From: a virus
Virus record (IMG/VR): IMGVR_UViG_3300032893_000294
Location: 1 to 21,913 of that record
Length of the DNA: 21,913 bases
Strand: one strand, 5' to 3'
Made by a program: the position numbers and the translations under genes. Of this stretch, positions 6,628-21,913 are shown piece by piece; the stretch's first letter is position 1; every line of letters starts with the position of its first letter. The notes beneath the pieces were generated by a model. The model did not search any database. It was not told the origin of the DNA and worked only from the letters and a program-made list of their open reading frames with translations.

Positions 6628-9138
6628 CTAGAGCTGATGAACTTCGAGCGTGGACCCTACCAGCACGCTGGAGGTCCCGGAAGCCACTTTTTGCGAGAAC
6701 TGGGCCGTGAGCGTGCCACCCGCATTGACTACGACCGTTCCTTCCATAACGACCTTGCCAGCCGTGCAGCCTGCCGTATTACCGTTCGATACTCCCCAAT
6801 CAGTCACGCGGGTGGAAATGACGTTCAACCCGGATGAATCACAGACCATCTGGACTTCGTAGATATCTGAAATGGCGGTGGACGTGCCCCCCATACGTGC
6901 CCGGATACCGCCGGTACCGTCCAGATTGACGAACAGGATGGCTTTGAAATAATAGGTGGTGCTGGACGCAACGTTCGACGACAACCCAGTAATGACTGTG
7001 GGCGAGGTGGTTGTCTTGTCAAACTGCGAAGTCGTGGCAACGATGGCCGGTACGCTGGAGCCGGTGCCGCCGTTGGCCACCGGCAGCACGCCCGATACCT
7101 GAGATGCGAGGTTGGCCGTTCCTGTCAGATCACCAAAGTCCGGTTGCGCTGTCAACCACGCCGTCCCGTTGTAACCGGTGAGGAAGAAGTGCGTGACCGG
7201 AGGCGTAGCCGGCGCGTACATGCACCCCAACGCGTTGTACAACGCTGCCGGGCACTGCGACGGATCAAGCGAGCCAGACAAGTCGGAGAAATCAGGCTGG
7301 GTAGCCGCAGGTGCGCCGCCGGTAGAGATGGTGTTGATCCATTTGTGCGGCACGCTTACCAGGCTCTTGACACCGCCGAGCGTGGACGCTGATGGGTTAG
7401 GCAATTGAGAGGCCGCTACCGACCCGGAAATGTCGGTGAACGCCGGTTGGGTGGCACCCGCTGCTCCATTGACTGAACTAATGGTGTTTATCCATTGGTG
7501 TGGAGTGCTGGGCCAACTCTTGACCCCGCCCAACGTAGACGACGTGGGCAATGGCAATTGAGAGGCGGCCACATTACCGGAAATATCGCTGAACGCTGGC
7601 TGCGCGGTGAGCCATGTCGTTCCGTTGTAGCCGGTGACGAAGTAATGGGTTACAGGGGGATCGGCCGGCGCGTACATGCACCCCAACGCCAGACCGGTGG
7701 AAGGCGGACATTGTACAGCACTCAAGGTCCCTGTCAGATCGCTGAAATCAGGTTGAGTAGCCGCCGGAACACCGGAAGTGGAAATGGTGTTGATCCACTT
7801 ATGCGTGGTCGCGGCAAAGCTGCGAACGCCACCGAGCGTGGACGATGTCGGATTGGGAAGTTGCGCGGCGGTGAGCGTGCCGGACAGATCGGAGAACGCC
7901 GGTTGCGCTGTCAACCACGTCGTTCCGTTATAGCCGGTGACGAAGTAATGGGTTACAGGGGGGTCGGCGGGAGCAAATAAGCACCCCAGCGCCAGCCCCG
8001 TGGCAGCGGGGCATTGCGAGGCGGCGAGACTTCCAGACAGGTCGGAGAATGCCGGGCGGCTCTGGTGCGGGGTGCCATCGGTGCCAATCCAGGCTATCCA
8101 ATTGTGCGAAGCCGATGTGATAGAATTGATGCCGCCGAGCGTTACCGCCGTGGGCGCCGGAATTTGTGCCGCCGTAATTGTACCGGTAAGGTCCGAAAAA
8201 TCGGGCTGGGTACATACCGGCGTGCCCGACGTGCTGTAGCCGATAGCCCAGTTGCTGGCCGCGCAGTTGGACGCGATGACGCCGCCATAGTTGCCCGCGC
8301 CAGACGCGGGTGCCGGAATTTGCGCGTGAGAAGCGGTACCCGAGATGTCGGTGAATGCGGGCTGGGCGCTCAGCCAGCTGGTCCCGTTATATCCAGTCAG
8401 GAAATAGTGCGTGACTGGCGGGTCGGCCGGCGCGTACACGCAACCCAGGGCAATGCCGGTGGACGCGGGGCACTGAGACGCGGCCAGCGTGCCCGAGATA
8501 TCGGTGAACGCGGGCTGGGTCGCGGCCGGCACGCCAGAAGTAGAGATTGTATTGATCCACTTGTGGGCAACGGATGCCAGGCTTTGTACACCACCGAGCG
8601 TGGAAGCCGTGGGATTGGGCAGCCGCGCTGCGGCCAACGTGCCGGTAACGTCCGTGCCTAAATTGACCGCGCCCCAGGTAGGAGCGCCGGATGCATTGCC
8701 GTGCAGGACCGTGGTGGTGGACCCCAGTGATCCCAACGCGTTGGGAGCGCTCGACCCGTTGCCCAGCACCAGCGCGTTGGAGGTAAGCGAGGAAAATCCA
8801 GCGGTGAGCGGGCCGACGGTAGCGCCATTGACGCGGACGAACACGCCGGTAGACGTCACCCAGATGTCGCCGTTCTTGGGAACGGTCGGCGGCACGCCGG
8901 GAATGAGATTGAGGCCCGCACCGGAGCTGGACGATGCAGCGGTTGTCAGCGGCCCGGTCAGGATTCCACCGGTGAGCAGCAGCGGCGGCGATTTCAGCAC
9001 ATCCTGCTTGGCGCTGAAATAGGAGTTCCATTGCGTGGCTGTTGGCACCTGCCCGGTGACAAATCCCGGATTGGACTGCGCCAGCGCCGCCGCCGACAAC
9101 CCGGCCAACGCCAGAGCCAACAGAATTCGCTTAAACAT
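6628..9138 (-). CDS. Repeat-built tail fibre with apparent signal peptide
   Basis: ATG 9138 was chosen over an upstream start because GGGGGT lies just before it and it overlaps the previous stop by only 8 bp. The 836-aa protein begins with M-F-K-R, a hydrophobic stretch and A-A-L-A-Q, a convincing Sec signal peptide, then G-Q-V-P-T-A-T-Q-W-N-S-Y-F, a motif common at the N-terminus of tail fibres. The middle (about 160-690) is made of alternating modules: S-T-L-G-G-V ... K-W-I-N-T-I-S-T and L-G-C-M-Y-A-P-A-D-P-P-V-T-H-Y-F ... G-Y-N-G-T-T-W-L. These are joined by P-A-F-S-D-L-S-G-T linkers. A C-terminal beta-rich domain (about 700-836) ends S-S-V-L-V-G-S-T-L-E-V and is likely the trimeric tip that binds the host. 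Confidence 0.85.
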   Translation of the reverse strand: MFKRILLALALAGLSAAALAQSNPGFVTGQVPTATQWNSYFSAKQDVLKSPPLLLTGGILTGPLTTAASSSSGAGLNLIPGVPPTVPKNGDIWVTSTGVFVRVNGATVGPLTAGFSSLTSNALVLGNGSSAPNALGSLGSTTTVLHGNASGAPTWGAVNLGTDVTGTLAAARLPNPTASTLGGVQSLASVAHKWINTISTSGVPAATQPAFTDISGTLAASQCPASTGIALGCVYAPADPPVTHYFLTGYNGTSWLSAQPAFTDISGTASHAQIPAPASGAGNYGGVIASNCAASNWAIGYSTSGTPVCTQPDFSDLTGTITAAQIPAPTAVTLGGINSITSASHNWIAWIGTDGTPHQSRPAFSDLSGSLAASQCPAATGLALGCLFAPADPPVTHYFVTGYNGTTWLTAQPAFSDLSGTLTAAQLPNPTSSTLGGVRSFAATTHKWINTISTSGVPAATQPDFSDLTGTLSAVQCPPSTGLALGCMYAPADPPVTHYFVTGYNGTTWLTAQPAFSDISGNVAASQLPLPTSSTLGGVKSWPSTPHQWINTISSVNGAAGATQPAFTDISGSVAASQLPNPSASTLGGVKSLVSVPHKWINTISTGGAPAATQPDFSDLSGSLDPSQCPAALYNALGCMYAPATPPVTHFFLTGYNGTAWLTAQPDFGDLTGTANLASQVSGVLPVANGGTGSSVPAIVATTSQFDKTTTSPTVITGLSSNVASSTTYYFKAILFVNLDGTGGIRARMGGTSTAISDIYEVQMVCDSSGLNVISTRVTDWGVSNGNTAGCTAGKVVMEGTVVVNAGGTLTAQFSQKVASGTSSVLVGSTLEVHQL
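7142..8452 (-). repeat. Four diverged copies of a ~90-bp fibre module
   Basis: Copies near 7142-7232, 7599-7690, 7901-7992 and 8361-8452 encode the G-C-x-x-A-P-A-x-P-P-V-T-H-Y/F-F module of the fibre. The second and third are almost identical over about 40 bp around CCGGTGACGAAGTAATGGG. Spacing is about 457, 302 and 460 bp, with the K-W-I-N-T-I-S-type modules between them. They reflect duplication inside the gene. Confidence 0.85.
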
Positions 9139-10612
9139 ACTGACCCCCAGTCTGTGTGGTGCCCGCAATGGAGCCGGGGAACGAGCCGCCGCCTCCATTG
9201 GTATCGATGACGCCGTTGGCCTCGACGATGTATTTCTTGCCGGTAGCCGAACCTGAGAACGTCACCACGCCTGTATCGCAGTAGATTTGCGCGGCAGCCG
9301 CGCACAACGCGAACTCGCTGGAAAATGCCGGCGAACCCGAAACGGTGACGGCAGTCACGCTGGTATCGAAGTAGATTTCGCCGCCGCGCGTGGCATTGAG
9401 ATGCCACTCGGCGCTGCCGGTGATGGCATAATTGCCTTCGCAATAGATGCGCCCGCCGTTCCACGCGAACATGTGCGCGTTAGCGGCCGAGCCGAACACC
9501 ATGCCGGTGTGGTTAATCTGGCCGCCCGCATTGGCGTCAACGGAATTGCCGCCGCTGGTGACCTTGAAATTCTGCAGTGTGTATGCCGCACCATACCCTG
9601 CACCGAACGCCGTGCCACTGTCGTTGATGATGCACGAATTGGCGTTGCCAGAGGTGGACATGAACAAAATCGAATTGACATTGTCGGCCCCCGGCGGGCG
9701 GCCATAGGCGCTGAACCCGGCGGTGTAGGTGCCGTCCGCCACCGTGACTGTGGCGTTGAACCCGGCGAGGTCGTAGGTATCGTTGATGACGTTCCATGCG
9801 TGCTGGAAGGTGAGCCAGGGGGTGAGCGCAGTTAACCCGTCGTTGGCATCGTTGCCGGTGGTGGCGATATAGAAGGTGGTATCGCCGGACAGAATGGTGC
9901 GGCCCGACGATCCGCCGCCACCGCCACCGTTCTGCAGCTGGTATGATGTGCCGTCCGGCACCACGGTCGCCATACCGCTAGACGGCAATTCGCCCGGCAG
10001 CACGTTGGAGCCGTCGGGGTGGACGACCGGTTTGGCGCCAAAACCGTTCAGATTGAGCGTAACTGAACTGGTGTTGTCCGCCGCGCCCTTTTTGATCTTG
10101 ATGGACCAGCCCGTTAGCGCCGCGAACGACGGCGGGGCCGGGGTAAGCGTGGCAACCATCGCATTGGCCGTGCCACTGTCGGCCGCGTACAGATCGGTCG
10201 GCGTATAACCCACCCAGTTGGCCCCACCGGTATCGGGGTCGCTGGTGTTGTCGTCCACCGTGCTGATCCAGAACCAGCCAGAAGTGGCCGCTGCCAGCAC
10301 CGCGCCTTGCGGGTAGCCACCGATGGCCGAAGAAAACGTGCCATCGTAACCCACCGGCCCGCCCGCGTTGTTCAGCCATTGCACCCATTGGGTAATCTGG
10401 AGCAACAGGCCGTTGAAGTCCTGCCCGAACGGCCACGTGCCGCCCGCGCCTTCCGGGGTCATCGAGAGCGGTGGAAAACCATCGGTCAGCGATGCCGCGC
10501 CGTCCTGAATACCGATCTGCGAGGCTTCCGGGATGGGGCGAATGTAGCCCGGCCCAGCCGCGTTGGCGAACGGGATTGGAAACTTCAGCGTGGGAATGTC
10601 GGCAATCTTCAT
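9131..10612 (-). CDS. Tail fibre or spike with beta-helix domain
   Basis: ATG 10612 follows GAGGAC, and the gene starts seven bases after the previous stop. The first 140 residues hold P-F-G-Q-D-F-N-G-L-L and G-Y-P-Q-G-A-V-L ... W-I-S-T-V-D-D-N-T-S-D-P, typical of the virion-attachment part of tail fibres. A Gly-rich linker (229-238) leads to a pectate-lyase-like right-handed beta-helix (about 246-480) opening T-F-Y-I-A-T-T-G-N-D-A-N-D-G-L-T. Such domains often bind or cut surface polysaccharide, but no catalytic residues can be assigned. It follows the DUF2612 baseplate gene, the usual place for receptor-binding genes. Confidence 0.85.
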   Translation of the reverse strand: MKIADIPTLKFPIPFANAAGPGYIRPIPEASQIGIQDGAASLTDGFPPLSMTPEGAGGTWPFGQDFNGLLLQITQWVQWLNNAGGPVGYDGTFSSAIGGYPQGAVLAAATSGWFWISTVDDNTSDPDTGGANWVGYTPTDLYAADSGTANAMVATLTPAPPSFAALTGWSIKIKKGAADNTSSVTLNLNGFGAKPVVHPDGSNVLPGELPSSGMATVVPDGTSYQLQNGGGGGGSSGRTILSGDTTFYIATTGNDANDGLTALTPWLTFQHAWNVINDTYDLAGFNATVTVADGTYTAGFSAYGRPPGADNVNSILFMSTSGNANSCIINDSGTAFGAGYGAAYTLQNFKVTSGGNSVDANAGGQINHTGMVFGSAANAHMFAWNGGRIYCEGNYAITGSAEWHLNATRGGEIYFDTSVTAVTVSGSPAFSSEFALCAAAAQIYCDTGVVTFSGSATGKKYIVEANGVIDTNGGGGSFPGSIAGTTQTGGQYV

Positions 10613-10619
10613 CTTGTCC

Positions 10620-11258
10620 TCAAGGGCTGATCACGACCGAGGCCACTACGCCCACAGGTTTCGGCAGCACGTGCGATTGCTCGATGATTGCCAGCTGCAC
10701 AGGCGTTGGATCGAACTTGAACGTGTAGGTCATCGTCATGTCGCGCCCGTCGGTCACGTAGCATTTCCCCGAACTTCCGAACAAAGTCATGAGAATGTTG
10801 TTGATAGCGAGGATGGAGCCGTCGCAGATGTTGGCGAACGCCTTGGCCAGAATGAGCTGCCGGTAGGCGTAGTCCGACAGCAGGTAATTCTCGGTAAACG
10901 GCGTGCCGGTCCAGAACGGCGCCTGATTGAACGGCTCTACATCCGTGCCGCCGTTTTCGTTGAACCCGAAATAGGCGCCGGTGGTCACCTGCAAAGCGCG
11001 ATTGACGCCCACGATGCGGCCCCAGACATCCAGCCCATAGCCCACGGCGGTGTCTACGTTCCAGATGAGATTGTAGAAGCTCTCCCAGTTCACTTCCTGA
11101 TCGACGCACTGCGAAAAGTTGTCGATCATCTCCAGCAGCGTGGGGCTGTTGGCGTACTGCGAGATGACGGTATCTTCAACATCGAAGTACGGAACGAAGG
11201 CGCCCGCGCCGATGGGGCTGATGCCGATCTGGAACTGGCCGATTGCCGAACTGGTCAT
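10620..11258 (-). CDS. DUF2612-type baseplate protein
   Basis: The 212-aa protein has [12 protein letters not shown] at about 74-85, the signature of DUF2612 phage proteins, followed by a domain with [14 protein letters not shown]. In gene order these follow the J-like wedge protein and precede the fibres, like P2 gpI or Mu gp48, and probably link the baseplate edge to the fibres. The start overlaps the J-like gene by 4 bp. Structural role by family and position; no enzyme motif. Confidence 0.85.
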
Positions 11259-12676
11259 GTCAAGGTGATCTTGATGTCGTTGGCCTGGGTGACCGGCACC
11301 TGATCGATGCCCACCTGGATGGTTTCCTGATCGAGCGCCGCAGCTGTGATCGTCGTGCTACCGGCCGTCTGCGACAGATCGACTGTGTAGGTGCCGATGC
11401 CGCCCGAGCCTGTGCCGAGCGCGGTAATCTGCGTGCCTTCCTGAATGGTCGAGCCGGAAATGACCTGCCCCACCGCGAGCGTGCCAGAGGTAACGGCGGA
11501 AACAGTGAGCGTCGTACCCGAAATGGAACCGGTGACTACCGCGCTGGCCACATTGTTGGAGCCCAGGAACAGGGAAATGATCTGCACCCACGGGCCTAGC
11601 ACGGCCACCGCCGAGATATAGCGGCTGGCGTAGATGATGGAACCGATGCGGGCGCGCGGCCCATTGTCGGTGCCGGCGAACGCATTGATGATGGCCGTCT
11701 GGATAAGGCTTACCGCGTTGGACGGTACCTGCGGGTTGTTGGCGATATTGATGGCGAACGCCACCACGAGATCGTCCGGCCGCTCGAATTTCACCGTATA
11801 GGCCACCGGGTTGGCATACAGGGGGTTGTTGTCGTAAGCGGTGACCGTGGTGTTGCCGGAGTAAGGCGCACCGGGGCTCTTCTTCGACAAAATGGCCTGC
11901 GCCACGTCCGAATCGGTGCCTCCAACCACGGCCACGTAGATGGCGTAAGCCGCGATGGTGTAGTCGCCGATGGTGGTACTGGTGGACGACGCATTGTCGT
12001 AGGCGTAGTAGTCGAGCACACCCGCCACCTTGGACACCGCGCCGATGATGGAACCCGCTGCGCCAAAGCTGTTGCCGGCCACGGACTCCGCTCGCCGCGC
12101 CTCGAAGTTGGCGCGGTTCTCGACGTCGACACCGGTCACGCCATCGGTGGGATTGTTGATGCTGTCCCAGCCGGGAATAGCCTGGTAAATGATGTTGAGC
12201 GTGTTGGCGGGGCAGACTACAGGCCCCGGCACCGAACAGGCAAAGGGCAGCGTGACCGTGCCGCCGATACCGATCTTGCCGCCGGTGGTGCAGATGTAAG
12301 TATTGCCTGCCTGATCCTGCGCCAGAGCGCCGGCCTTGATCTTGACCCCGGCAAGGCCGGAACATGTGCATTGCACCACGGTCGACAGGGCCGGGTTGCG
12401 CTCGATGAAATAGATGCGGGCAATGGCATCCTGCATGCGCCCCGACGCATAAGCCGGGTCTACCTGATTGGTGAGAAAGCAGAACGTGTCGTCGGCGTTG
12501 GCGATGATGGCCGCCATGGACGAGGCCAGCTGGCCCTGCGGCGTTTCCAGCGCGGGGTTGAGGTTGCCGCCGAAGGCGTCGTTGATGTCTTCCTGCACGC
12601 CGGCCAGGATGTCCTGCTCGTCGGGCGGTATGAACCCGTTGGCGCCGAATGTTGGGGGAGGGACATTTGTTGGCAT
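11255..12676 (-). CDS. Baseplate wedge protein, J/gp47-like
   Basis: The 473-aa protein matches the layout of P2 gpJ / Mu gp47 / T4 gp6 family wedge proteins. It has an N-terminal helical part, [11 protein letters not shown], an A-G-x-x-I-x-A-G core with Y-I-C-T-T-G-G, then [16 protein letters not shown] and repeated V-A-V-V-G-G. It forms the ring of wedges that opens when the tail contracts. Residues about 379-445 are an extra Gly/Thr-rich domain near the C-terminus (listed separately). It begins four bases after the gp25-like gene. Confidence 0.88.
11342..11542 (-). other. Inserted Gly/Thr-rich domain in J-like protein
   Basis: Residues about 379-445 read [15 protein letters not shown], then [10 protein letters not shown], then [12 protein letters not shown] and a closing S-Q-T-A. 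The same pattern occurs in the sheath and tail terminator proteins, so it is an accessory, probably surface-exposed domain rather than part of the J fold. Confidence 0.75.
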
Positions 12677-12679
12677 GGG

Positions 12680-13030
12680 CTAGAACGACGCCGCCTGGGT
12701 AAAGCCGTTCTTGTCGGTAATCTGGACCTGCCCCGCCACCGTGCGGTGGTTGAACGACGAGATGAAGCAGCGCGCGGTACGCACGCCCGGCACAGTCAGC
12801 GCAGCAGCCACGAACTGCGATTTGAGCAGCGTAAGCGGCGGCAGCTTGCCCAGAATGCGCTCCCAGTACGGGATGCCCTTGGTGGTGTCGTAATACAGTT
12901 CGCCCTTGAACAGGCGGATGGCGCTGGCCGCGTCCTGCGCCATGGAATAGGGGTCGGTCGCCACGGCAATGTTGCCCGAGATGTCGGCCACCAAATCCCA
13001 TTCGTTGGTATCGAGCAACAGCGTGTTCAT
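12680..13030 (-). CDS. Baseplate wedge protein, gp25/gp46-like
   Basis: The 116-aa protein has Q-D-A-A-S-A-I-R-L-F-K-G-E-L and D-T-T-K-G-I-P-Y-W-E-R-I-L-G at about 32-62, the pattern of the P2 gpW / T4 gp25 / Mu gp46 family. These small proteins join the sheath to the baseplate wedges and start sheath assembly. ATGA overlap with the spike gene upstream; the J-like gene follows three bases after the stop, the order seen in other contractile tails. Confidence 0.85.
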   Translation of the reverse strand: MNTLLLDTNEWDLVADISGNIAVATDPYSMAQDAASAIRLFKGELYYDTTKGIPYWERILGKLPPLTLLKSQFVAAALTVPGVRTARCFISSFNHRTVAGQVQITDKNGFTQAASF

Positions 13031-13692
13031 ACAGGGACCCCCGTATCACCGGAGCCAGTGGTGACGCCGGAATGCGTATGCGTGCTGCCGACCGCTTTGC
13101 CGTTGTTCTTGAGCAATCCGGTAGTGGCAATGGCCGCCGCACTCATGTCGATGATATTACCGTTACAGTCGGTAATAGTGATGCCGTCCGCGTTCATCAC
13201 GACTGAATTGCCGTTCTTGTCGACGATGGCTATGCCAAGGTCGTTGAACTGGACGTACTGGTTAGGCACGCCGTTGAGTACGCCGCCCAGATAAACGCCG
13301 TCCGAAAAACTGAACCGGCGATAAGAGCCGGGGTTGGCTATGCCGCGAACAGCCTTGTTGGCCGAAATATCGCGGTCGCAAATGGCCACGCGCCCGATGT
13401 CGCCCACCTGCGGGTCCATGATGATGGCGTTGAGGCCGCCCTGGACGCGCTCGTACAGGATGTTGTGGATGACGCCATGCTGCGAAGCGTTGTTGTCGCC
13501 GTCCACCATGTTCGTTATGGGCTGAACGTCGATGAGGCCCGCTTCGGCAACCTCGCCCGCGCTGGTCACCGCCACTACTTTGGCCAGAATGATCGTGCGG
13601 ACTCGCGCCAGCTTCTGAGTGATGATGAAGTTCAGCGCATTGAAGTCCGCAGTGCCGTCGTTGGGGCGGAACTGGCCGTAGCCGTCGCTCAT
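13027..13692 (-). CDS. Baseplate central spike, gpV/gp138-like
   Basis: ATG 13692 (overlapping the hub stop) was chosen over an out-of-place longer frame. The 221-aa protein has an OB-like N-terminal part (about 30-115), a P-G-S-Y-R-R-F-S-F-S-D-G-V-Y link, then short beta repeats (V-D-K-N-G-N-S-V-V-M-N-A-D-G-I-T-I-T-D) that fit a trimeric beta-helix. The C-terminal S-T-H-T-H-S has an HxH pair (His205, His207), which in P2 gpV and phi92 gp138 spikes binds an iron ion at the tip. The spike is the point that pierces the outer membrane. Confidence 0.88.
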   Translation of the reverse strand: MSDGYGQFRPNDGTADFNALNFIITQKLARVRTIILAKVVAVTSAGEVAEAGLIDVQPITNMVDGDNNASQHGVIHNILYERVQGGLNAIIMDPQVGDIGRVAICDRDISANKAVRGIANPGSYRRFSFSDGVYLGGVLNGVPNQYVQFNDLGIAIVDKNGNSVVMNADGITITDCNGNIIDMSAAAIATTGLLKNNGKAVGSTHTHSGVTTGSGDTGVPV

Positions 13693-14567
13693 TTGGACAC
13701 CGGCGCCGGGAACGAAGGGTTGATGCCGCTTACGCGCGTAAACCAGTTGCCATCCGGCACTTTGGAATCGAGGTCGTGGTCCAGCATGTAGACGGTCCAC
13801 GTGCCGCAAGCCGGTGTGAGCATCGATTGCACGTTGATCTGGCCCCCTAAGCCAATCGACGGGTTGAACAAGGTCTTGACCATGATGCCGTTGGGTGTAT
13901 AGGCCGGGTACCCGTCCATGCCAGTATCCGGCGAGATGAGCGGTACTGAGCCGCCGCGCGAACCATCGCGTGGCCAGATTTCCAGCTTTAACGGGTCGTC
14001 CAGCGACCAGTTGATGCCGGCTTCTTCAGCGCACGCCTTGGCCTGATCGCGCACCGACCCGTAATAGTGCGGGTTGGACAACTGCACGCTCACGCCGTTG
14101 TTGACGAAGGCCCGGCCCATCTGCGCGGCAAACCCGGACATCACCAGCGCCGCGTCCACGCCCCCCTGGAAACTGGTGGGCGGAATGAACTGCGTGGCTT
14201 CCGTCAGTCCGGTATGCGCCTCCACATAGAGCGAAACGTCCGGCGAATTGTCGAAATTGGCATAGGCGTTGGTGATGGTTCCCTGGAATACCACCGCCAT
14301 GCCGTTCTGCGAGTCGCCCGCTTCCAGCGTGACAGTATTACGCGGCACCAGGATGACCTTCATGCCGAGCGTCGACAATTTGTTCATCATCGACAACGTC
14401 ATGCCGTAGACGTCGATCTGGGCGGTACCCATGGCATTGCCGCCAGCCTTGACGATCTTGGCGCTCACCCGCAAGCCGGATAGCTTGACCGTGTTGGTGC
14501 CGCTTTCGGCAAAAGTTCCGCTGGCCAGCGTGAAAGTGACGTCGATCAGCCGCTCAACGAAGGACAT
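13689..14567 (-). CDS. Baseplate hub protein (gp44/gpD/gp27 type)
   Basis: The 292-aa protein lies between the plug-like protein and the spike, the hub position in contractile tails, and overlaps the spike start by 4 bp. It is beta-rich with V-F-Q-G-T-I-T-N-A-Y near 93-102, a middle helical part (R-D-Q-A-K-A-C-A-E-E-A) and a C-terminal beta domain. Hubs form a trimeric ring joining the tube to the spike. The family call rests mostly on gene order and length; the sequence is diverged from the classic members. Confidence 0.75.
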   Translation of the reverse strand: MSFVERLIDVTFTLASGTFAESGTNTVKLSGLRVSAKIVKAGGNAMGTAQIDVYGMTLSMMNKLSTLGMKVILVPRNTVTLEAGDSQNGMAVVFQGTITNAYANFDNSPDVSLYVEAHTGLTEATQFIPPTSFQGGVDAALVMSGFAAQMGRAFVNNGVSVQLSNPHYYGSVRDQAKACAEEAGINWSLDDPLKLEIWPRDGSRGGSVPLISPDTGMDGYPAYTPNGIMVKTLFNPSIGLGGQINVQSMLTPACGTWTVYMLDHDLDSKVPDGNWFTRVSGINPSFPAPVSK

Positions 14568-14568
14568 T

Positions 14569-14880
14569 TCACCCCAGACCGTTCAGGTCGGTCAGCTCCA
14601 GATAAGCGAGGCTGAAGCGCGAGCCCAGCCCTGTGTAAACCGGGTCGGCATTGCCCTGGTTGTCGATGAAGATGAAATCACCGATGAAGCCCAGGTACAG
14701 CGAACGCACGATCCGATTGATGTTCTCGCAGATGACGCCGCCGATAATGAGCGTGTCGTTGACATAGACGTCCATGAACAGCCCGGCTGCCTTCTGGTAG
14801 ACGTTCAGCTTACACGACTGATCGGCCAGCGTGACACCGAGCGTTTGCGACGGAATGGGTTGGAGCGGAACGATTTGCAC
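14569..14880 (-). CDS. Baseplate plug-like protein (Pam3 gp18 type)
   Basis: GTG at 14880, just after the previous stop, puts the start at V-Q-I-V-P-L-Q-P-I-P-S-Q-T-L, matching how I recall this family beginning; ATG 14919 would add 13 residues overlapping the upstream gene. The 103-aa protein has V-Y-Q-K-A-A-G-L-F-M-D-V-Y-V-N, G-V-I-C-E-N, Y-L-G-F-I-G-D-F-I-F-I-D and Y-T-G-L-G-S-R-F. I recognise it as the family of the cyanophage Pam3 baseplate plug gp18, thought to close the tube at the baseplate. The call is from memory of the motifs, not a search. Confidence 0.8.
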   Translation of the reverse strand: MQIVPLQPIPSQTLGVTLADQSCKLNVYQKAAGLFMDVYVNDTLIIGGVICENINRIVRSLYLGFIGDFIFIDNQGNADPVYTGLGSRFSLAYLELTDLNGLG

Positions 14881-14881
14881 T

Positions 14882-15550
14882 CTACCAGCCGCCCCCTCCG
14901 CCGCCACCGCCTCCAGCACCGCTGCTGCCAGTGCCGTTATGTTCGGCCGGGATTGCCGCCTGACTCATGGAAGGCGAAGTCGTCTGCACCGTGCCACCGT
15001 TGACCGGACTGGCGCTCACCGGCGACTTGGTATTGGAAAATTCCGCCGTAGCGGTGACGCGAATCTGCTCGCCATAGAAGCCAATGGTGATAAGCCCGGC
15101 GCCCTTGGTGGCGTTGCGGTCGTACTCATTGCGCCGGAAATTGACGCTCGAATAGACCGCTTCCGGCGTCACCACGTCGTACAGATCGAGCGACGTCAGG
15201 ATCGTGTCGGCCGACTGAATGAAGGTAGCGCGGTCGTCCGGCGTGCCGCCCACCGACAAGGCGATGTTGACCTCGAACGGGGTTTCTACCTTGTCATAGG
15301 TCTGAAACGCGCCCTTCTCCACCGGGTAATCCGACAGCGTCCATTCCTTGCGGTAGCTCATGTCGATCACGTTGTCGGACGCGATGACCGGGCTGTTGTT
15401 CAGGAAGATGCCCCATTGCGGGTCAACCGATTGTCCAAAAGACGACGAACCATCGGAGGTTAGCAACGGCGGACTGGTTTGTGGTAGCGCAGGGTCCCGC
15501 AGGACAGGGGGAACGCCTTGTGCGGCCGGAACCTGATAGAAGATCGACAT
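14882..15550 (-). CDS. Dit-like tail/baseplate protein
   Basis: The 222-aa protein carries D-Y-P-V-E-K-G-A-F-Q-T-Y-D-K-V near 74-88 followed by a beta domain, the pattern of Dit-like N-terminal domains that join the tail tube to the hub. The first 40 residues are Pro-rich and disordered. The C-terminus is odd: a run of nine glycines ending in Trp. The ATG shares one base with the tape-measure stop. Position directly after the tape measure supports a distal-tail adaptor role. Confidence 0.75.
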   Translation of the reverse strand: MSIFYQVPAAQGVPPVLRDPALPQTSPPLLTSDGSSSFGQSVDPQWGIFLNNSPVIASDNVIDMSYRKEWTLSDYPVEKGAFQTYDKVETPFEVNIALSVGGTPDDRATFIQSADTILTSLDLYDVVTPEAVYSSVNFRRNEYDRNATKGAGLITIGFYGEQIRVTATAEFSNTKSPVSASPVNGGTVQTTSPSMSQAAIPAEHNGTGSSGAGGGGGGGGGW

Positions 15551-17355
15551 CAGACCGGCCCGCCATTGGCCTGGTTGGCGAGGCTATTGCGCTCCAGTGC
15601 TGCACGCAGGTCGCGCGCTATACCGGTGGCATCCTTGGCCTGGGTCACCACGGTGATGTGGCCGATGTGCGTTGACTTGGTCGACGACTTGGTTACGCCG
15701 CCAGACTTGCTCAAGACGTTCGCATATACGAGCCGCTGTGCCAGTGCCGCCATGACGTTGGCGGGTCTTTCATAAAGCGAAGTGATGATCGACGTTGCCT
15801 GGCTAGCGTCGGTAGCCGCGCTCAGTGCGCGCCCGGCCTTCTGCTCGGAACCCTGGCGCAGTTCGTAATTGATAAAGGCCAACTGTTCGTCGTGCGTGGA
15901 ACTGCGAATGTCGTGGCCCGCCCACCGCGCAAACGCGGCCTGCCTGTCGGGATGCCATTGCGCCAGCCCATAAGCTGAGCCGCTGTCACCCACGGCGCGT
16001 GCGTTGCCGCCGCTCTCCGCCTGAATGTTGGCCGCGATACCGATGGCCTGTTCGCGCGTCCAGCCCATTTTCTGAAGCTTGGCGACATCGTCGCCCGAAA
16101 CCGCGCCGCCACCGCGCCCGCCAAACGCGGATGCCCTTGCTGGCGACTTGCCGCCAAAGGCATCGATCTGGCGTCCGGCATTGGTGACGTCATCGCTCAT
16201 GTCGCCCCAAAGATGGTGCCACCAGTGCTTTACAGCGTCCCAGTGCTTGTAGAGTTCATAACCGGCGAAACTGATAGCCGCGATTCCGGCGATGATCCAC
16301 CCCACCGGTGTGGCAAGAATTGCCGCGCCGAGCGCCGCGAACGCATCCGCCAAGGCTGGCAATGCCACTGTGGTGAGCGTACCAAGTACACCAGTGAGGG
16401 CAATGGCGCCACCGCCAAGAACTTCAAAACCAAGAGACATTGCCGCAACTGCGACACCAACAAAACTAATGACCATTGCCGCCGACAACGCCAGAACCGC
16501 CGCCGTCAACACAGCGAAGAAGGCAATGAGCAACGGTTTGTGAGCTTCCAGAAACGCTATAAACGCCGTTAATGTTCTTAGTATCGCGCTTATTGCCGGC
16601 TCCAAAAGGGTGAAGATTGTATGACCGGAACGAGTGGATTCTTGTTCCAATTCTTTCAGATTTTTATTAAATTCCTTACCAGCCGCAATGTCGGCCGGTG
16701 TCATAGCTAGACCTTTTTGTGCATCCAGCGCTTCCTGGATTGCCTTGCGGCCCTGCATAATGAAGGCAATCGTGCCGGGGTCCATACCCATCGCCGTAAG
16801 CAGTGCAGTAGCACGCGCCGGGTCCATGCCTTTGACATGGTCGGAGATTTCGAGGAACAGCTCGGACGCGGTCTTGAGGTGCCCGTTACCATCGATGAGG
16901 CCGATGCCCAGCGCGCGCAAATACGGGATGACGGCGGATTCGCCGGTAAGCGAGAACTGCTGCAGGTTCTGCGACAAATTGAACAGCGAGGAGGTAACCC
17001 CGTCCGCCGAACCGCCGGCCTGTACCACGGCTCCTCGCCATTCGGCCAAGGTCTGGACTGAAATGTCCATCATGGTGGACATGCGGCCGAGCTGAATGTC
17101 GGTGGTCACCAGATCGGAGATGAATTCCTTGATGCCTTTGCCGGCGGTAAACACCGCATAAAGCGCGATCAGTTCGCCGCGCAGGCGTGAGAAGAATTCC
17201 GTGCCGCGTTTGCCGGCACCTTCGATATCGTCGCCCGCCTTGCGCGCCGAATCGCCGGTCTTCTTGAAGTCGTCCTCGACCTGTTTGCGCCCCTTGGTGT
17301 AACCGGAGGCGTCGAGGCCCACTTCTACCAGCAAACTGTCAATGACGGTCGGCAT
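15550..17355 (-). CDS. Tape measure protein with tail lysozyme domain
   Basis: The tape measure sets tail length and is ejected ahead of the DNA. ATG 17355 (sharing a base with the chaperone stop) gives 601 aa; a TTG three bases earlier is possible. Order: N-terminal part with D-A-S-G-Y-T-K-G-R-K-Q-V-E typical of tape measures; helical 60-265; strongly hydrophobic 270-365, likely membrane-active; then a phage-tail-lysozyme domain (about 424-540). The lysozyme has M-G-W-T-R-E-Q-A-I-G-I-A-A-N-I-Q-A-E-S and Y-G-L-A-Q-W-H, Glu447 being the likely catalytic acid. At about 1.5 angstrom per residue this predicts a short tail of roughly 90 nm. A patch at 16430-16690 is visibly AT-richer than the rest. 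Confidence 0.9.
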   Translation of the reverse strand: MPTVIDSLLVEVGLDASGYTKGRKQVEDDFKKTGDSARKAGDDIEGAGKRGTEFFSRLRGELIALYAVFTAGKGIKEFISDLVTTDIQLGRMSTMMDISVQTLAEWRGAVVQAGGSADGVTSSLFNLSQNLQQFSLTGESAVIPYLRALGIGLIDGNGHLKTASELFLEISDHVKGMDPARATALLTAMGMDPGTIAFIMQGRKAIQEALDAQKGLAMTPADIAAGKEFNKNLKELEQESTRSGHTIFTLLEPAISAILRTLTAFIAFLEAHKPLLIAFFAVLTAAVLALSAAMVISFVGVAVAAMSLGFEVLGGGAIALTGVLGTLTTVALPALADAFAALGAAILATPVGWIIAGIAAISFAGYELYKHWDAVKHWWHHLWGDMSDDVTNAGRQIDAFGGKSPARASAFGGRGGGAVSGDDVAKLQKMGWTREQAIGIAANIQAESGGNARAVGDSGSAYGLAQWHPDRQAAFARWAGHDIRSSTHDEQLAFINYELRQGSEQKAGRALSAATDASQATSIITSLYERPANVMAALAQRLVYANVLSKSGGVTKSSTKSTHIGHITVVTQAKDATGIARDLRAALERNSLANQANGGPV

Positions 17356-17962
17356 CAATCCTCATCCTTGGCATTGCGCACGACCCGGCGATTGTGGGCG
17401 TCCACGGCAATGACCTCCAGCAGATCGTAGGCATCCTCCATGCCGTACACGGTCTGCAGTTCATGCAAGGTGGCCAGTTCGGACGACACGATGACGCCTA
17501 TGATGCGAGGGATGTTGCCGTATTCTACAAGCCCGCTGACGCCAGACCCGAGGTCAACTTCTGTTTGGCGGCGGGCGACAAAAAATCCAGGTGGAGCTTG
17601 ATCACCTCCGCGCGCAGCTTGAGACGGGTGGGGATTTCCTCGATATCGTCGGACACCAGGGGGAAGGCGGTTTCCGGGTGCGCGGGATCGCGGATGACCA
17701 TCACGCACCCCATCATTTCGTCCAGCAAGGGTTCGATGTCGTCGAACGGCAATTTGAAGAATTGCGCGGCGCCGAGCGTGGCCACGCCCGCCAGCCCGCT
17801 GCCCTTGACCGTTTCCGGCAATTCCACGCCCGCGTTCTGCAACACCAGCAGCGCGCGGATGCCCCATTTTTCGGCCTGCGCGGCGGGCATCTCGGTAATC
17901 TTGAACACCTTGCCCTTGTCGCGGCCTTCGTCGGTAATGGTGACTATTGCAGTCTTTCTCAT
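17355..17962 (-). CDS. Tail assembly chaperone, -1 frameshift product
   Basis: Reading starts at ATG 17962 and shifts -1 at the slip site 17579-17585, then continues to TGA 17357-17355. The fusion would be 202 aa: 128 shared residues plus a 74-residue extension. The extension contains G-L-V-E-Y-G-N-I-P-R-I-I-G and L-H-E-L-Q-T-V-Y-G-M-E-D-A-Y-D-L-L-E-V, clearly coding but with no start of its own. It lies between the tube and the tape measure, where G/GT chaperones of lambda and E/E' of P2 are found. The long form is expected to bind the tape measure in small amounts. Confidence 0.85.
17525..17962 (-). CDS. Tail assembly chaperone, short form
   Basis: The 145-aa zero-frame product starts at ATG 17962, which overlaps the tube stop by 4 bp (ATGA). 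It begins M-R-K-T-A-I-V-T-I and has E-K-W-G-I-R-A-L-L-V-L-Q-N-A and F-D-D-I-E-P-L-L-D-E-M-M, like other phage tail chaperone N-terminal domains. It stops at TAG 17527-17525 shortly after the slip site. As in lambda gpG this should be the abundant form that coats the tape measure. Confidence 0.88.
   Translation of the reverse strand: MRKTAIVTITDEGRDKGKVFKITEMPAAQAEKWGIRALLVLQNAGVELPETVKGSGLAGVATLGAAQFFKLPFDDIEPLLDEMMGCVMVIRDPAHPETAFPLVSDDIEEIPTRLKLRAEVIKLHLDFLSPAAKQKLTSGLASAGL
17579..17585 (-). promoter_or_regulatory. Ribosomal slippery site T TTT TTG
   Basis: In the zero frame the codons are GAT TTT TTG, so the heptamer fits X XXY YYZ exactly and a -1 slip enters the open extension frame. 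Two bases downstream, GCCCGC-CGCCA can pair with TGGCG-TCA-GCGGGC to form an interrupted 11-bp stem, a possible stimulator. The spacer is shorter than usual. Confidence 0.8.
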
Positions 17963-18402
17963 GCGCCAACCTGCAGGACCACCGACTGCCATGTAATCGA
18001 GAACTTCCGCATCTGCAGCAGTTTCTTGGCATCGGGCAACATCGGCACGGTCTTGAGGAACCCGCGCGTGAGCGTTGCTTTCTTCTGCAATGAGCGCAGC
18101 GTGATCACGCCGTTGGCGATATAGAGCTGGCGGTTGGCGATCTGGGCCTGGTTCCATTGGTCGAAAATGTCGGCCGATTCGGAGTCGGCTTGCAACGTGA
18201 TCGACTGCTTGACTTCGTTGAACACGAAGCCGGCCGACAGGCGGCCGTCGACGCCCATCTGGGTTTCGGCGGTCTCGACCGGATCGGTTGCAAAGACGTC
18301 ATCCACCCCGAACCCTTGCAGCGATTGCGGCGACGGGAACAGGTCGGTAATCGACAGCAGGTAGGTGGCGTCTGCTGCTGTAAGCGTGCGGGTGTTGGCC
18401 AT
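17959..18402 (-). CDS. Tail tube protein
   Basis: The 147-aa protein directly follows the sheath gene, has a GGAG RBS, and precedes the chaperones, which is the tube position in contractile tails. It has beta-rich segments such as G-F-V-F-N-E-V-K-Q-S-I-T-L-Q-A-D-S-E-S, and an R-G-F-L-K-T-V-P-M-L-P-D-A-K-K stretch. Length is normal for a tube monomer. I assign it by position and character; it resembles DUF3277-type proteins from memory. Confidence 0.82.
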   Translation of the reverse strand: MANTRTLTAADATYLLSITDLFPSPQSLQGFGVDDVFATDPVETAETQMGVDGRLSAGFVFNEVKQSITLQADSESADIFDQWNQAQIANRQLYIANGVITLRSLQKKATLTRGFLKTVPMLPDAKKLLQMRKFSITWQSVVLQVGA

Positions 18403-18414
18403 TGACGGTCGCTC

Positions 18415-20172
18415 CTACTGGACGTCGATAGAGGTGAGATCGATCTGTTGGACCGCTTCGCCGTCCATGTACCAGAACGTGCATGGCGGCGATTGCCGGG
18501 CTTGTCGAACCTGCGGCGAAGCATCCTTGACCTGCAAGTACCAGCCTTGGCTGGATAGCACGTTGCTGATGGTCGTTCCCGCCGCGTTGTTCACTTCAGC
18601 GGCCTGCGCCGCCGACAAGGTCACGCCCGCGCGGAAAGCACCGAAGTTGAGCCCGGCGTTGATGACGTCGGCGCATGCGGCTTCGATGAGCGCGTAACCG
18701 GTCGAGTTGTATGGGATGGACTTCACGGTGAACAACAATTCCATCAACGCCAGCTGGAACTCGTTGTTGAGCCAAATCTGGTTGATGTAGCTGTCCATCC
18801 ATTCGAATGGCCCGCTCACGCTGCCCGGCGACAACCCCTGGAACTGCTGGTTAGCCGTTGCCCACGCGCCATAGAAATTATAACCGTTGGCGATGAGGTT
18901 GGACGCTACCGACTGGTTGGTGATGTCCGGCACCAGCCCGGTCTGGCTGCGGAACTTGTAGGTAATACGCCCGTTGGTCTCGGTGAAATCGATGGACGCG
19001 CCGATGCCAATAGCGAACGCCGCCTTGGTGTAGTCGGGGCAGTTGATGAGAAAGGTGCCCGAGTAATCGCCCTGCTGAAGCAAATAGCCCAGCGAGGTCG
19101 TCGCCGGCACCGTGGTCTGGGGCGAAGCGTCCGTATCCCAACAGACGTAGGCGTAGCGGTCGTCGGTGGTGCTCACCCACTGGGCAAACGCGAGCTTTAC
19201 CGCGTTGCCGGTATCGCCGTCCGCGTCGGGGTCGAACAGCGTCATGAAGGTAGCCCAGTCCTGGGTCTCTTCAATGAGGTTGTTCATGAAGGTAGCGGGA
19301 ACTTGTGCGGCCACACCCTGCGACAGCACGGCGCCGGTTGCCTGCGTGAGCAACAAGGGCGCCGCCAGCGTGCCGGTGGCATAAGCGATGGTCGAGCCGT
19401 TGCCCTTGTCGGGTGAGGTAATGACGAACGCGCCCGACACCGAATCGTAGGTAACGGTGGGACCCGACGCCACGCCGCCGGTCATGGACTCGCTGGCCAC
19501 CGTCTGAATGGGACTCACGAAATAAGTGCCGGTACCGCCCGTGCCGGAATCCAACCCCACAATGAGCGTGCCATCCGTAACGCCGGTGCCGGCAATGATC
19601 ATGCCGACATAAAGCGTGCCCGAGCCCACGGCGGTGACCGTCATGATGGACCACGGTTGCGGCAAAGGCGGGAACGGCGTGGCGATGGATGCGGTAAACG
19701 ACGCGCTGGCGGGAGCTTCCGCCTGCAAAGCGGTCTGGAGGATGGACGCCGCATCCGAGAACGAGGTGGCGCCGGACAGATCGATGCCGGAAGCGTTGTA
19801 GGGCACGGTGCTGACGGTGATGTCGAGCGCGCCACTCAACCCCTGCAACGTGGTAAGCGACATGCCGGAAATATCGCCACCGCGCAGATAGGAATGAACC
19901 CGGTGCTGGTTGTACTGGGCAAACAGCATGGCGCCGGGCTTGACGTTGGAGTTATCGAAGCCCTGGAAGTAGATGGCCGCCGCTGCGGCTTCCGTCGATC
20001 CACCGCCGAAGTAGTCCGATACGTCGAGCGCGTTGGCAAAACTGTGCACGTCGCCGATTGGCACCTGCGTATTGGTGGTGAGCGCCAGCCCCACCATGTC
20101 GAGCGCGGAGCCGCCGGCCGCCAGCACGTTGGGCGTGACGTTGACGATATCTGATGCGGGAATGGAATTCAT
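18415..20172 (-). CDS. Tail sheath protein, DUF3383 type
   Basis: The contractile sheath surrounds the tube and shortens on infection. ATG 20172 follows AGGAG. The 585-aa protein has the DUF3383 features I recognise: V-S-D-Y-F-G-G-G-S-T-E-A-A-A-A-A-I-Y-F-Q-G-F near 51-71, P-G-A-M-L-F-A-Q-Y at 79-87 and V-T-Y-D-S-V-S-G-A-F-V-I-T-S at 240-253. Others are the A-T-G-A-V-L-S-Q-G block and a C-terminal F-W-Y-M-D-G-E-A-V-Q-Q-I-D-L. Residues about 156-233 are an inserted Gly/Thr-rich domain splitting the usual sequence between I-L-Q-T-A-L-Q-A and the V-T-Y-D motif. Because that region of sheaths is outward-facing, the insert likely decorates the tail surface. Confidence 0.9.
   Translation of the reverse strand: MNSIPASDIVNVTPNVLAAGGSALDMVGLALTTNTQVPIGDVHSFANALDVSDYFGGGSTEAAAAAIYFQGFDNSNVKPGAMLFAQYNQHRVHSYLRGGDISGMSLTTLQGLSGALDITVSTVPYNASGIDLSGATSFSDAASILQTALQAEAPASASFTASIATPFPPLPQPWSIMTVTAVGSGTLYVGMIIAGTGVTDGTLIVGLDSGTGGTGTYFVSPIQTVASESMTGGVASGPTVTYDSVSGAFVITSPDKGNGSTIAYATGTLAAPLLLTQATGAVLSQGVAAQVPATFMNNLIEETQDWATFMTLFDPDADGDTGNAVKLAFAQWVSTTDDRYAYVCWDTDASPQTTVPATTSLGYLLQQGDYSGTFLINCPDYTKAAFAIGIGASIDFTETNGRITYKFRSQTGLVPDITNQSVASNLIANGYNFYGAWATANQQFQGLSPGSVSGPFEWMDSYINQIWLNNEFQLALMELLFTVKSIPYNSTGYALIEAACADVINAGLNFGAFRAGVTLSAAQAAEVNNAAGTTISNVLSSQGWYLQVKDASPQVRQARQSPPCTFWYMDGEAVQQIDLTSIDVQ
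19474..19656 (-). other. Inserted Gly/Thr-rich domain in sheath
   Basis: Residues about 173-233 read M-T-V-T-A-V-G-S-G-T-L-Y-V-G-M-I-I-A-G-T-G-V, then D-G-T-L-I-V-G, then G-T-G-G-T-G-T-Y-F-V and I-Q-T-V-A-S-E-S-M-T. The match to the domains in the J-like and terminator proteins is clear at the protein level. Confidence 0.8.
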
Positions 20173-20178
20173 CGCGTG

Positions 20179-20904
20179 CTACTCCTGTGGGTAGGTTTCT
20201 TCCACGTTGATCGTCGTAATGACCGCTTGGTCGGCGAACTGCTGCGGCAGGCTCAAGGTTGGATTGACCTGCAGCGAAGCCTCAATGACCCAACGGTCCT
20301 CGTATTGCTTTTCGGCATTGATGAACGGAATCTGGCGCGGGTCTTCCGAATACAGGGGGGCGGCTGAATACCCGTTGCGCTCGAAGAAAAACACCGCGTA
20401 ATCGTCGCGCAAGGCGGTGGATATTGCCTGCGCATTGTCGCCGCTGTTGGGGCCGTGCACGTCCAGCTGCACCACAACCTTGGTGGGCTGGCTGAGCAAG
20501 GCCAGCCCCGCCGCCATGGCCTGGCTGGCAACCGCCTGCGACGGCGCCACCACATAGACGCCAACACCGCCCGGTGTGCCGCTCGTTTGCGAGACGATAG
20601 CCGAACCCGCCGCCAGATTGGCGCCAAAGAGCGCCGCCCCCGCCACCAGCTTGCCCAGCACCACGGCAGACACCGTCATGGCCGTGCCGGCAATGACCGC
20701 CGTGAACGAGGCGTCGTCGTAGTCGTCCACGTTGGTTTCCAACCGCTCGCGGCGGATGGCGTTCATGGTAACGAAGTCCGGCCCCTTGGGCTCCGGCACG
20801 CGGTTTACCTGCGCCTGGATCACTTCCACCCCGGACGGCAGGAAGCTCAACAGGTAAGCGCGCAGCGCCTTGAAGGCGTCGTCTTGGACGGGGGCGAGGA
20901 TCAC
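20179..20904 (-). CDS. Tail terminator protein, LIC_12616/gp12-like
   Basis: GTG 20904 overlaps the tailspike stop by 4 bp. The 241-aa protein begins with A-L-R-A-Y-L-L-S-F-L-P-S-G-V-E-V-I-Q-A-Q-V-N-R-V-P and P-K-G-P-D-F-V-T-M, the pattern of the LIC_12616/neck-terminator family, and ends with V-V-V-Q-L-D-V-H-G-P and F-F-F-E-R-N-G-Y. Terminators cap the tube and sheath at the head end; location just before the sheath agrees. Residues about 67-133 are the inserted domain, which splits the family sequence right after E-T-N-V-D-D-Y. Confidence 0.85.
   Translation of the reverse strand: MILAPVQDDAFKALRAYLLSFLPSGVEVIQAQVNRVPEPKGPDFVTMNAIRRERLETNVDDYDDASFTAVIAGTAMTVSAVVLGKLVAGAALFGANLAAGSAIVSQTSGTPGGVGVYVVAPSQAVASQAMAAGLALLSQPTKVVVQLDVHGPNSGDNAQAISTALRDDYAVFFFERNGYSAAPLYSEDPRQIPFINAEKQYEDRWVIEASLQVNPTLSLPQQFADQAVITTINVEETYPQE
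20506..20706 (-). other. Inserted Gly/Thr-rich domain in tail terminator
   Basis: Residues about 67-133 read A-M-T-V-S-A-V-V-L-G-K-L-V-A-G-A-A-L, then A-A-G-S-A-I-V-S-Q-T-S-G-T-P-G-G-V-G-V-Y-V-V and S-Q-A-V-A-S-Q-A-M. It is the most diverged of the three copies in this window. Confidence 0.75.
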
Positions 20905-21913
20905 GATGTCGCATAGGACGGCGTAGTGCCGTAAGTTGGGTAGTTGATGTTATTGCCGCTGTTGTTGACGACCGGAGTCACGGTCGCAATCAGATATTGC
21001 GGGTCGAGATAGATGTTCGACGCGCCGGAATCCAATTGAATGCCGATGTTTCCAGCGCCGGTATTCACCAGCAGCGAGTTCGCGCCGCCGCCGCCCACCA
21101 TCTTGAAGCCGACGCAATTCGTTCCGATGTGGACGAAGAAATTGCAGAACTCGAAACGGCAACCATGCAGTTCGTCCTTGCCGTTTGTGGACGTATGGTA
21201 ATACCCCTTTTCCCACCCCTGAATGGTTGCTCCGAACATCCGGTTTTGCCCGCCGGTTGTGATCTTGACGGCAACCGATCCGGGACGCGGCGTCGTGCCC
21301 AGCCCGGCAAAATATCCACCGAATGACTGGAAGCTCGGAGACAGACCCTGCGTCTGAATGCCGGTCAAGCAATCGCCAGCGGCAAAATTCCACATCTCGT
21401 GGTATTGGGCATTTCCGCTCAGGCCATCGATGGTCAGGCCGATGCCGCCGTAATAATCCGAGACCGTCACATCTTCATAGATGCAGCTTTCGGTATCCTT
21501 GACGACGATGCCGTTGCCGCTCGTATTGCCTACTGCGCCCTTGACCTGCAAGCGCGCAAAAGCATAGCCGAGCGTGCTGTGCGACCCCTTGTAGGCCGTG
21601 ATAGCGGTAATTCCATTGTCTGAGATGATACGGGACGAACCGTTCGCTTGGCTGTTGCTCACGCCCTGCACGCCTTCGCCAAGCATCAACGTACCGGGAT
21701 AGGGAACGGTCAGACCCGTACCAATCCGGTAACGGCCCTGTGGAAAATAAACAGTGCCGCCCCTGTTCGGGTCCATGGCGTTGAGCGCGGCCTGTATCGC
21801 GGCACTGTCGTCGGTCGTGCCGTCTCCCGCCGCGCCGAAGTCCAGCACGTTTTTCCATGTCGCAAAGCGATCACCGAATGAACGGGAGGCGATGCCACCC
21901 GTTACCTTGGTCG
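20901..21913 (-). CDS. Tailspike with pectate-lyase-like beta-helix, 5' end outside window
   Basis: The frame is open to the right edge, so the N-terminus is missing; the GTG at 21848 is not a likely start because the codons before it read G-G-I-A-S-R-S-F-G-D-R-F-A-T-W-K-N, a typical lead into spike domains. Next comes V-L-D-F-G-A-A-G-D-G-T-T-D-D-S-A-A-I-Q, the signature of Pectate_lyase_3 type right-handed beta-helices, and many short Gly/Asn-rich rungs to the end. Such spikes bind or degrade capsule or O-antigen. It lies before the tail terminator, not with the other fibres, which is unusual. Catalytic residues cannot be assigned. Confidence 0.88.
   Translation of the reverse strand, partial: TKVTGGIASRSFGDRFATWKNVLDFGAAGDGTTDDSAAIQAALNAMDPNRGGTVYFPQGRYRIGTGLTVPYPGTLMLGEGVQGVSNSQANGSSRIISDNGITAITAYKGSHSTLGYAFARLQVKGAVGNTSGNGIVVKDTESCIYEDVTVSDYYGGIGLTIDGLSGNAQYHEMWNFAAGDCLTGIQTQGLSPSFQSFGGYFAGLGTTPRPGSVAVKITTGGQNRMFGATIQGWEKGYYHTSTNGKDELHGCRFEFCNFFVHIGTNCVGFKMVGGGGANSLLVNTGAGNIGIQLDSGASNIYLDPQYLIATVTPVVNNSGNNINYPTYGTTPSYATS

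Follow-up and report, generated by a model that had tools for sequence, protein, structure and literature searches.

The virus record IMGVR_UViG_3300032893_000294 from IMG/VR (21,913 bases, analysed over its whole length and termed the window) spans the tail region of a phage with a contractile tail, and its structural genes are encoded on the minus strand. In this region, a domain of approximately 70 residues, referred to here as the ornament domain, occurs once in each of three tail proteins, namely a J-like baseplate wedge protein, a tail sheath protein of the DUF3383 family, and a tail (neck) terminator protein. The host genes and the domain copies are situated as follows:

11255..12676, minus strand, J-like baseplate wedge protein (473 aa), host of copy 1
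11333..11551, minus strand, ornament domain copy 1, in the C-terminal part of the J-like protein (residues 376–448 of 473)
18415..20172, minus strand, tail sheath protein (585 aa), host of copy 2
19468..19713, minus strand, ornament domain copy 2, in the sheath (residues 154–235 of 585)
20179..20904, minus strand, tail (neck) terminator protein (241 aa), host of copy 3
20500..20721, minus strand, ornament domain copy 3, splitting the terminator (residues 62–135 of 241)

The three segments are real, homologous copies of one domain, as an earlier note made from the sequence had described. A domain profile of 69 copies from other phages, with every window row excluded, was searched against the 238 stop-to-stop open reading frames (ORFs) of the window and 1,500 shuffles of the three host proteins. 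The sheath ORF scores 85.1 bits (E 3.2e-26), the J-like ORF 83.7 bits (E 8.7e-26), and the terminator ORF 78.8 bits (E 3e-24), against 3.4 bits (E 1.1) for the fourth-ranked window ORF and 9.9 bits for the best shuffle. Queried against the whole record, the J copy recovers the two remaining copies with E-values of 5.2e-10 and 5.1e-8; as a protein query at E <= 10 it finds nothing beyond the three places. Aligned with each other, the copies share 47% (sheath–J), 50% (sheath–terminator), and 39% (J–terminator) identity. Furthermore, the matches of all three proteins to two PHROG profiles coincide, falling within positions 554–644 of phrog_38233 and 387–467 of phrog_21413. With regard to the bounds, the segments first proposed are real, but the sheath stretch starting at 19656 omits the first strand and a short Pro-rich loop.

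The host families are clearly recognised around the inserts. The J-like protein matches PF04865 Baseplate_J with 52.1 bits (gathering cut-off 21.1) and phrog_6 with E 1.7e-56, and its relative in the PDB is gp44 of phage E217 (8env_J, E 2.4e-13). The sheath matches PF11863 DUF3383 with 446.5 bits (gathering cut-off 34.9); the match is broken into two stretches, the best of which, residues 235–580, starts at the end of the insert. Similarly, the match of the terminator to PF23961 Phage_tail_terminator_9 (84 bits, gathering cut-off 27) is broken into two stretches, the best of which, residues 138–232, lies after the insert.

Comparison with relatives lacking the domain establishes it as an insert in all three host families. 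Relatives were collected from IMG/VR by each full protein and by the domain copies, plus from genomes, and the counts by site are not dereplicated (e.g., loci L096/L097, and L108/L193 from one contig). At the sheath site, 66 ORFs match on both flanks; 12 are empty, with a gap of -4 to -1 residues, and 52 contain at least one recognised copy in the gap. The filled sheath gaps cluster near 70, 143, and 205 residues, while seven rows of one group (L104 etc.) read 103–108, their second-flank match beginning late. At the terminator site (57 ORFs), 15 have 5–15 residues and 42 have 65–79 residues together with a copy. Thus the splitting of family sequence, claimed earlier for the sheath and the terminator, holds in both, and it extends to the J-like protein, where 5 of 53 relatives have no copy, 43 have one, and 5 have two. 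A DNA alignment of the empty L114 sheath gene with three filled relatives gives no sharp junction.

The solved sheath of E217 supports the same conclusion. The E217 tail machine (sheath gp31, gateway gp29, and gp44) contains homologues of the hosts. According to its report (PMC10329688), the sheath is built of three globular domains, the gateway, which resembles a terminator, joins the neck and the sheath, and gp44 is part of the baseplate nut. The predicted model of the window sheath superposes on the E217 sheath (8env_A, 504 aa) with Z 33.7 and rmsd (root-mean-square deviation) 3.5 over 454 residues, within the model range 20–572, and on the sheath of phage Pa193 with Z 34.2 over 453 residues. 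Since the aligned 453–454 residues span about 550 residues of the model, some 100 model residues (about 99 against the E217 sheath) are left unpaired, and these are probably mainly the insert. The sequence offset to the E217 sheath, 1 before the site and 87 after it, agrees with this, and the E217 chain passes through the site without an insert of such size. The alternative that the segments are core parts of their families, alike through convergence of Gly/Thr/Val-rich beta sequence, could draw on the biased composition of the ornament domain. However, composition-matched shuffles score no higher than 9.9 bits, compared with 79–85 for the real proteins, the solved E217 sheath is shorter by about the insert length, and sites are empty in all three families; the empty sites and the shuffles refute this alternative, which retains practically no probability.

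Structure prediction suggests that the ornament domain is a small self-contained all-beta fold, probably a barrel. The J copy folded alone by AlphaFold2 (AF2) from a 72-row alignment, with the initial GTG of the stretch read as Met, gives an all-beta model with a predicted local distance difference test score (pLDDT) of 95.3 and a predicted template-modelling score (pTM) of 0.82, with strands at residues 4–22, 29–32, 40–45, and 53–72. In the AF2 model of the whole sheath (46-row alignment; pLDDT 88.0, pTM 0.84), the copy is located between helix 138–150 and strand 239–243. It is predicted to contain six strands, at residues 157–164, 175–184, 191–195, 202–210, 215–220, and 225–235, and the ten-residue blocks of residues 157–235 have pLDDT values of 76–92. 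The strand pattern of the J copy alone agrees with that of the sheath copy in context if the first and last long strands of the former are each split in two. The J and sheath copies are thus linked by their predicted strands and the terminator copy by the profile match, and the three segments are not core parts of their families nor, as far as the two predicted copies show, unrelated folds.

The nearest solved fold is chain 1 of 8eci from Arthrobacter phage Bridgette (Foldseek E 0.024, 31% identity), which superposes on the domain with Z 7.2 and rmsd 2.2 over 67 residues. Level with it are the barrels of IF2 (9h9h_Y, Z 7.2), eEFSec (5izl_A, Z 6.8), and Uba1 (Z 6.4; range 5.0–6.4 for Uba1 178–260), followed by the tail tube of phage Mystique (9n71, residues 103–179, Z 6.2) and F1-ATPases (Z up to 5.5). 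All these matches fall below Z 8 and indicate at most a common arrangement. The small beta-barrels of IF2 and eEFSec, the FCCH domain of E1 enzymes (PF16190), and the N-terminal domain of F1-ATPases are comparable in arrangement at Z about 5–7; PF16190 is not among the 19 Pfam families listed at E <= 1 for 72 copies of the ornament domain, and a profile comparison with the two available phage FCCH-like sequences gives no match. PF16190 does occur elsewhere in domain-bearing ORFs, in L151:1208-6922 of a Nitrosarchaeum metagenome-assembled genome (MAG) at 29.9 bits (cut-off 29.5), and in L212:2979-4241 at 20.2 bits, below the cut-off.

Among predicted viral structures, BFVD gives 15 matches at E <= 1e-3, including an HK97-type capsid protein (64% identity), a P22 gp10-like protein, and a side-tail-fibre-repeat protein. 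Two collagen-repeat proteins of the giant virus Indivirus ILV1, A0A1V0SCQ2 and A0A1V0SDM6_2, also contain a predicted stretch that resembles the domain both structurally and in sequence (53% and 39% identity), which could be a real transfer or an assembly artefact.

The Bridgette match raises the question of a cement role, in which the domain would contact neighbouring subunits and stabilise the tail and the head in the manner of capsid decoration proteins. Bridgette has dimeric cement proteins around the penton (PMC13033339), and chain 1 of 8eci, the best solved fold, would be such a cement protein. The 8eci chain and the BFVD model A0A3G2KGJ4 of phage Judy have a similar small beta fold. Compared with the ornament domain, the 8eci chain is a separate protein of approximately 125 residues, and a PDB profile search at E <= 10 does not find it; PDB sequence searches with the domain alone and with the domain profile return chance hits only. 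The structural match is level with the translation-factor barrels, the insert is both present and absent within one well-supported sheath group, and stacks of one to three copies are awkward for a fixed interface. On this balance, a cement role is unlikely.

Over 40,036 domain residues from redundant ORFs, charged residues account for 3.4%, compared with 13.5% in the rest of the host ORFs. Simultaneously, Thr/Ser rises to 32.1% (16.8% in the rest) and Gly to 16.9% (9.4%), while aromatics fall to 4.3% (9.5%) and Trp to 0.1% (1.6%). All three window copies have at most 4% charged residues; aromatics reach 8% in the sheath copy, which also has a single Trp. Gly, Thr, Gln, and one Tyr make up the near-invariant columns. 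Together, the composition and the invariant columns favour a neutral folded body and show no sign of a conserved ligand site. Carbohydrate-binding modules have a conserved ligand site that is often aromatic. The suggestion of the earlier note that the domain confers glycan binding thus finds no positive evidence in these data, and the Gly/Thr/Gln/Tyr conservation with few aromatics is weak counter-evidence.

As a rival explanation, this idea would make the copies weak adhesion modules for glycans or other surface polymers, with several decorated proteins together lending the virion avidity for the surroundings of its host. The same domain is present in fibre-like proteins, the bacterial ORF in L146 also has a lectin-like Laminin_G_3 domain, and phage Ig-like (immunoglobulin-like) ornaments are reported to be modular adhesins for epithelium (PMC13370021). 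Set against this are the scarcity of aromatics and Trp given above and the absence of a conserved cluster, a single Tyr accompanying the Gly, Thr, and Gln positions; no carbohydrate-binding module is prominent among the fold matches listed, which excludes nothing. Such adhesion appears improbable, slightly more so than the cement role.

The gain and loss of the domain were followed on a quick tree of the sheath core, with the insert excluded, comprising 59 of the 66 sheaths (3 were too short and 4 identical cores were dropped), 10 of them empty. On this tree, at least 6 changes are required to explain presence and 16 to explain copy number, and the starred branches alone force 4 changes for the empty state, the stars of a quick tree being weaker evidence. 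The empty L114 sheath groups with the filled sheaths of L016, L130, and L088, with a value of 100 for the four in the Shimodaira–Hasegawa-like approximate likelihood ratio test (SH-aLRT). Meanwhile, the terminator state needs 4 changes on the sheath tree, and the paired states (n = 51) comprise 34 with both sites filled, 10 with the sheath only, 5 with the terminator only, and 2 with neither.

The copies themselves (476, or 350 after removal of exact duplicates) mostly descend within a site. For copies at the sheath, J, and terminator sites in the window and in the loci from L087 onward, the mean identity is 0.436 at the same site across genomes (4,006 pairs), 0.425 between tandem copies at one site (36 pairs), 0.406 between different sites across genomes (7,495 pairs), and 0.394 between different sites within one genome (91 pairs). 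The nearest neighbour in another genome lies at the same site for 130 of 153 copies. Among the fetched sequences, the closest relatives of the window copies are all same-site copies (sheath, L236 at 72%; J, L120 at 78%; terminator, L134 at 62%), and the window J copy likewise shares 75% identity with two copies at other sites, one in a sheath (L130) and one in a head-closure protein (L017). In a poorly resolved tree of 230 of the 350 copies, the host label changes 51 times, against a minimum of 6 and a shuffled mean of 143.2, with 33 changes for sheath and 22 for J. The identities and the tree together indicate that copies are mostly inherited at one site and sometimes passed between sheath, J, and other hosts, and exchange between sites over longer times is likely.

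These results divide the earlier proposal of a mobile decoration. Gain and loss of an extra domain in unrelated virion proteins is upheld by the empty sites and the repeated changes on the sheath tree, whereas a spread inside a single phage is not supported, since different sites of one genome are no more alike than different sites across genomes. A recent decoration that copied itself within this phage, from one tail gene to two others, would account for three copies inside 9.4 kb of one contig. However, these copies are only 39–50% alike, compared with up to 72%, 78%, and 62% to same-site copies elsewhere, and same-genome copies show no excess similarity, making such a recent spread very improbable.

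The domain is not confined to these three hosts. In 269 scanned sources (268 loci and the window, selected for the domain or the host proteins, and hence not a measure of prevalence), 263 contain the domain, with 615 copies in 423 ORFs. With the domain masked, the host ORFs form 45 clusters, some of which may be fragments of one family; 28 cluster representatives beyond the window proteins were scanned, 20 with PHROGs and 8 with Pfam. The labels obtained include head closure Hc3, minor head protein, head protein, baseplate wedge, tail fibre, a tail sheath of another family (phrog_10581, L077), and Phage_capsid_4 (L143), with head-tail adaptor Ad3 as a weak label (E 0.00087); several of the scanned representatives have no label other than the ornament domain itself. 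In 22 related virus records, the domain occurs at 0 to 8 places, and 21 records have at least one. Two rhizobial genomes contain all 6 and all 7 of their places in single stretches of approximately 18 and 16 kb, which are presumably prophages, and in the phylum of genome G024, the domain is found in 2 of 299 genomes, one being G024 itself. As regards named phage records, at least 5 of 50,697 match at E 1e-5, and two other copies used as queries give at least 1 and at least 3 matches, all of these being lower bounds because the BLAST low-complexity filter was on. In addition, a 1,301-residue ORF of a Rhodocyclaceae bacterium MAG (L146:959-4861) combines DUF6701 and Laminin_G_3 with two copies of the domain, so that the domain may also occur in bacterial surface proteins.

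The domain is covered by none of the families in Pfam and NCBIfam. Searches with 72 copies give a best E of 0.024 in Pfam and 0.0082 in NCBIfam, in each case to one unrelated-looking family, and the scarcity in named phages is possibly the reason that no family exists. The PHROG families phrog_21413 (unknown function, 595 positions) and phrog_38233 (tail fiber protein, 896 positions) contain a stretch matching the domain, but they are whole-protein families in which the domain is not delimited as a unit. Three motif strings of the domain have no match in the full-text literature covered. The titles and abstract openings found on sheath insertion, promiscuous or Ig-like domains, and protein shuffling do not describe it either, subscription papers lying mostly outside this coverage.

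Promiscuous Ig-like domains occur in the virion proteins of tailed phages, and their purpose has long been debated. The ornament domain resembles these Ig-like ornaments in being small, all-beta, optional, distributed over unrelated virion proteins, and mostly unsettled in function. Compared with them, it has no significant match to Ig families among the 72 copies (one Big_6 hit at E 0.44 in Pfam and one Ig_like_ice hit at E 0.033 in NCBIfam), its closest listed folds are mostly small barrels at Z up to 7.2, with no Ig fold prominent among the listed matches (which excludes nothing), and it is situated as an in-frame internal insert in the sheath, terminator, and J-like proteins. The best reading is that the domain behaves like the phage Ig-like domains yet represents a separate family missing from Pfam and NCBIfam. 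Mosaicism at the level of domains is established for phage structural proteins (PMC10684548).

Taken together, we hold with moderate confidence that an all-beta domain, inserted in frame at tolerant loops of three tail proteins, serves as an optional ornament of the virion. Because relatives with an empty site have an unbroken host chain, the two ends of the domain have to be close together, and insertion would thus spare the host fold. The sheath loop takes more than 200 extra residues in up to three tandem copies, which suggests that it faces the outside. Gain and loss would proceed by recombination between phages rather than by copying inside one genome. In the proposed mechanism, the low-charge domains would add neutral bulk to the virion surface. 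This bulk may tune the stability of the virion or the weak interactions with its environment, and no dedicated receptor-binding site would be involved. The assignment of such a function is a committed guess drawn from composition.

Several observations weigh against an optional, interchangeable ornament. The sheath insert of L113, 78 residues long, is not recognised by the domain profile, and the sheath copy of L116 lies slightly upstream of the site. The terminator copy of the window is not Thr/Ser-rich (17.6%), though its charge is low (1.5%). The terminator copies form nearly one lineage (6 changes in the copy tree, 1 forced), and the terminator insert may therefore be old and useful; site-bound inheritance may mean that the copy at each site has its own adapted role. 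Furthermore, the only copy-free record among the 22, that of L114 (43,151 bases), may be a fragment.

A wider reading of the optional ornament is tentative and less secure than its tail-protein form: a widespread uncatalogued cassette, mainly of uncultured phages, could be plugged into permissive outer loops of almost all kinds of exterior virion proteins (those of the capsid, neck, sheath, baseplate, and fibres), zero to eight times per phage, tuning the particle surface independently of the receptor-binding proteins. The ornament domain would represent a second promiscuous ornament family beside the Ig-like one, absent from Pfam and NCBIfam. It shows where the sheath, neck, and baseplate of contractile tails can accept added domains, and some of the unannotated sequence in environmental phage genomes is explained by it. 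Related sheaths with 0, 1, 2, or 3 copies exist in nature, and natural plus/minus relatives such as L114 compared with L130 and L088 make the purpose of the ornament testable.

The remaining genes of the window include a tail assembly chaperone, a tape measure, baseplate hub and wedge genes, a structural protein (phrog_587), fibre-like genes, and an endolysin. The features with individual observations are as follows:

5977–6615, minus strand, small protein with serralysin C-terminal/RTX calcium-binding repeats (PF08548, E 3.2e-9)
6628–9198, minus strand, repetitive protein of 856 residues
17358–18157, minus strand, tail assembly chaperone (phrog_1932)
17959–18402, minus strand, E217 gp32-family protein
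20901–21911, minus strand, pectate-lyase-like, tail-spike-like fragment

In E217, gp32 is the tail tube (PMC10329688). The tail-spike-like fragment is located directly upstream of the terminator and is cut by the contig end, and the protein with RTX repeats sits between fibre-like and endolysin genes. The 856-residue protein contains repeats of 300 nucleotides (65–70% identity) and 127 nucleotides (63–72%), with no significant Pfam match and a single weak PHROG match (E 0.0035). In the chaperone gene, a T TTT TTG sequence at 17579–17585 fits the classical -1 slippery heptamer, the frame being assigned by hand, and the -1 frame continuation matches phrog_3976.

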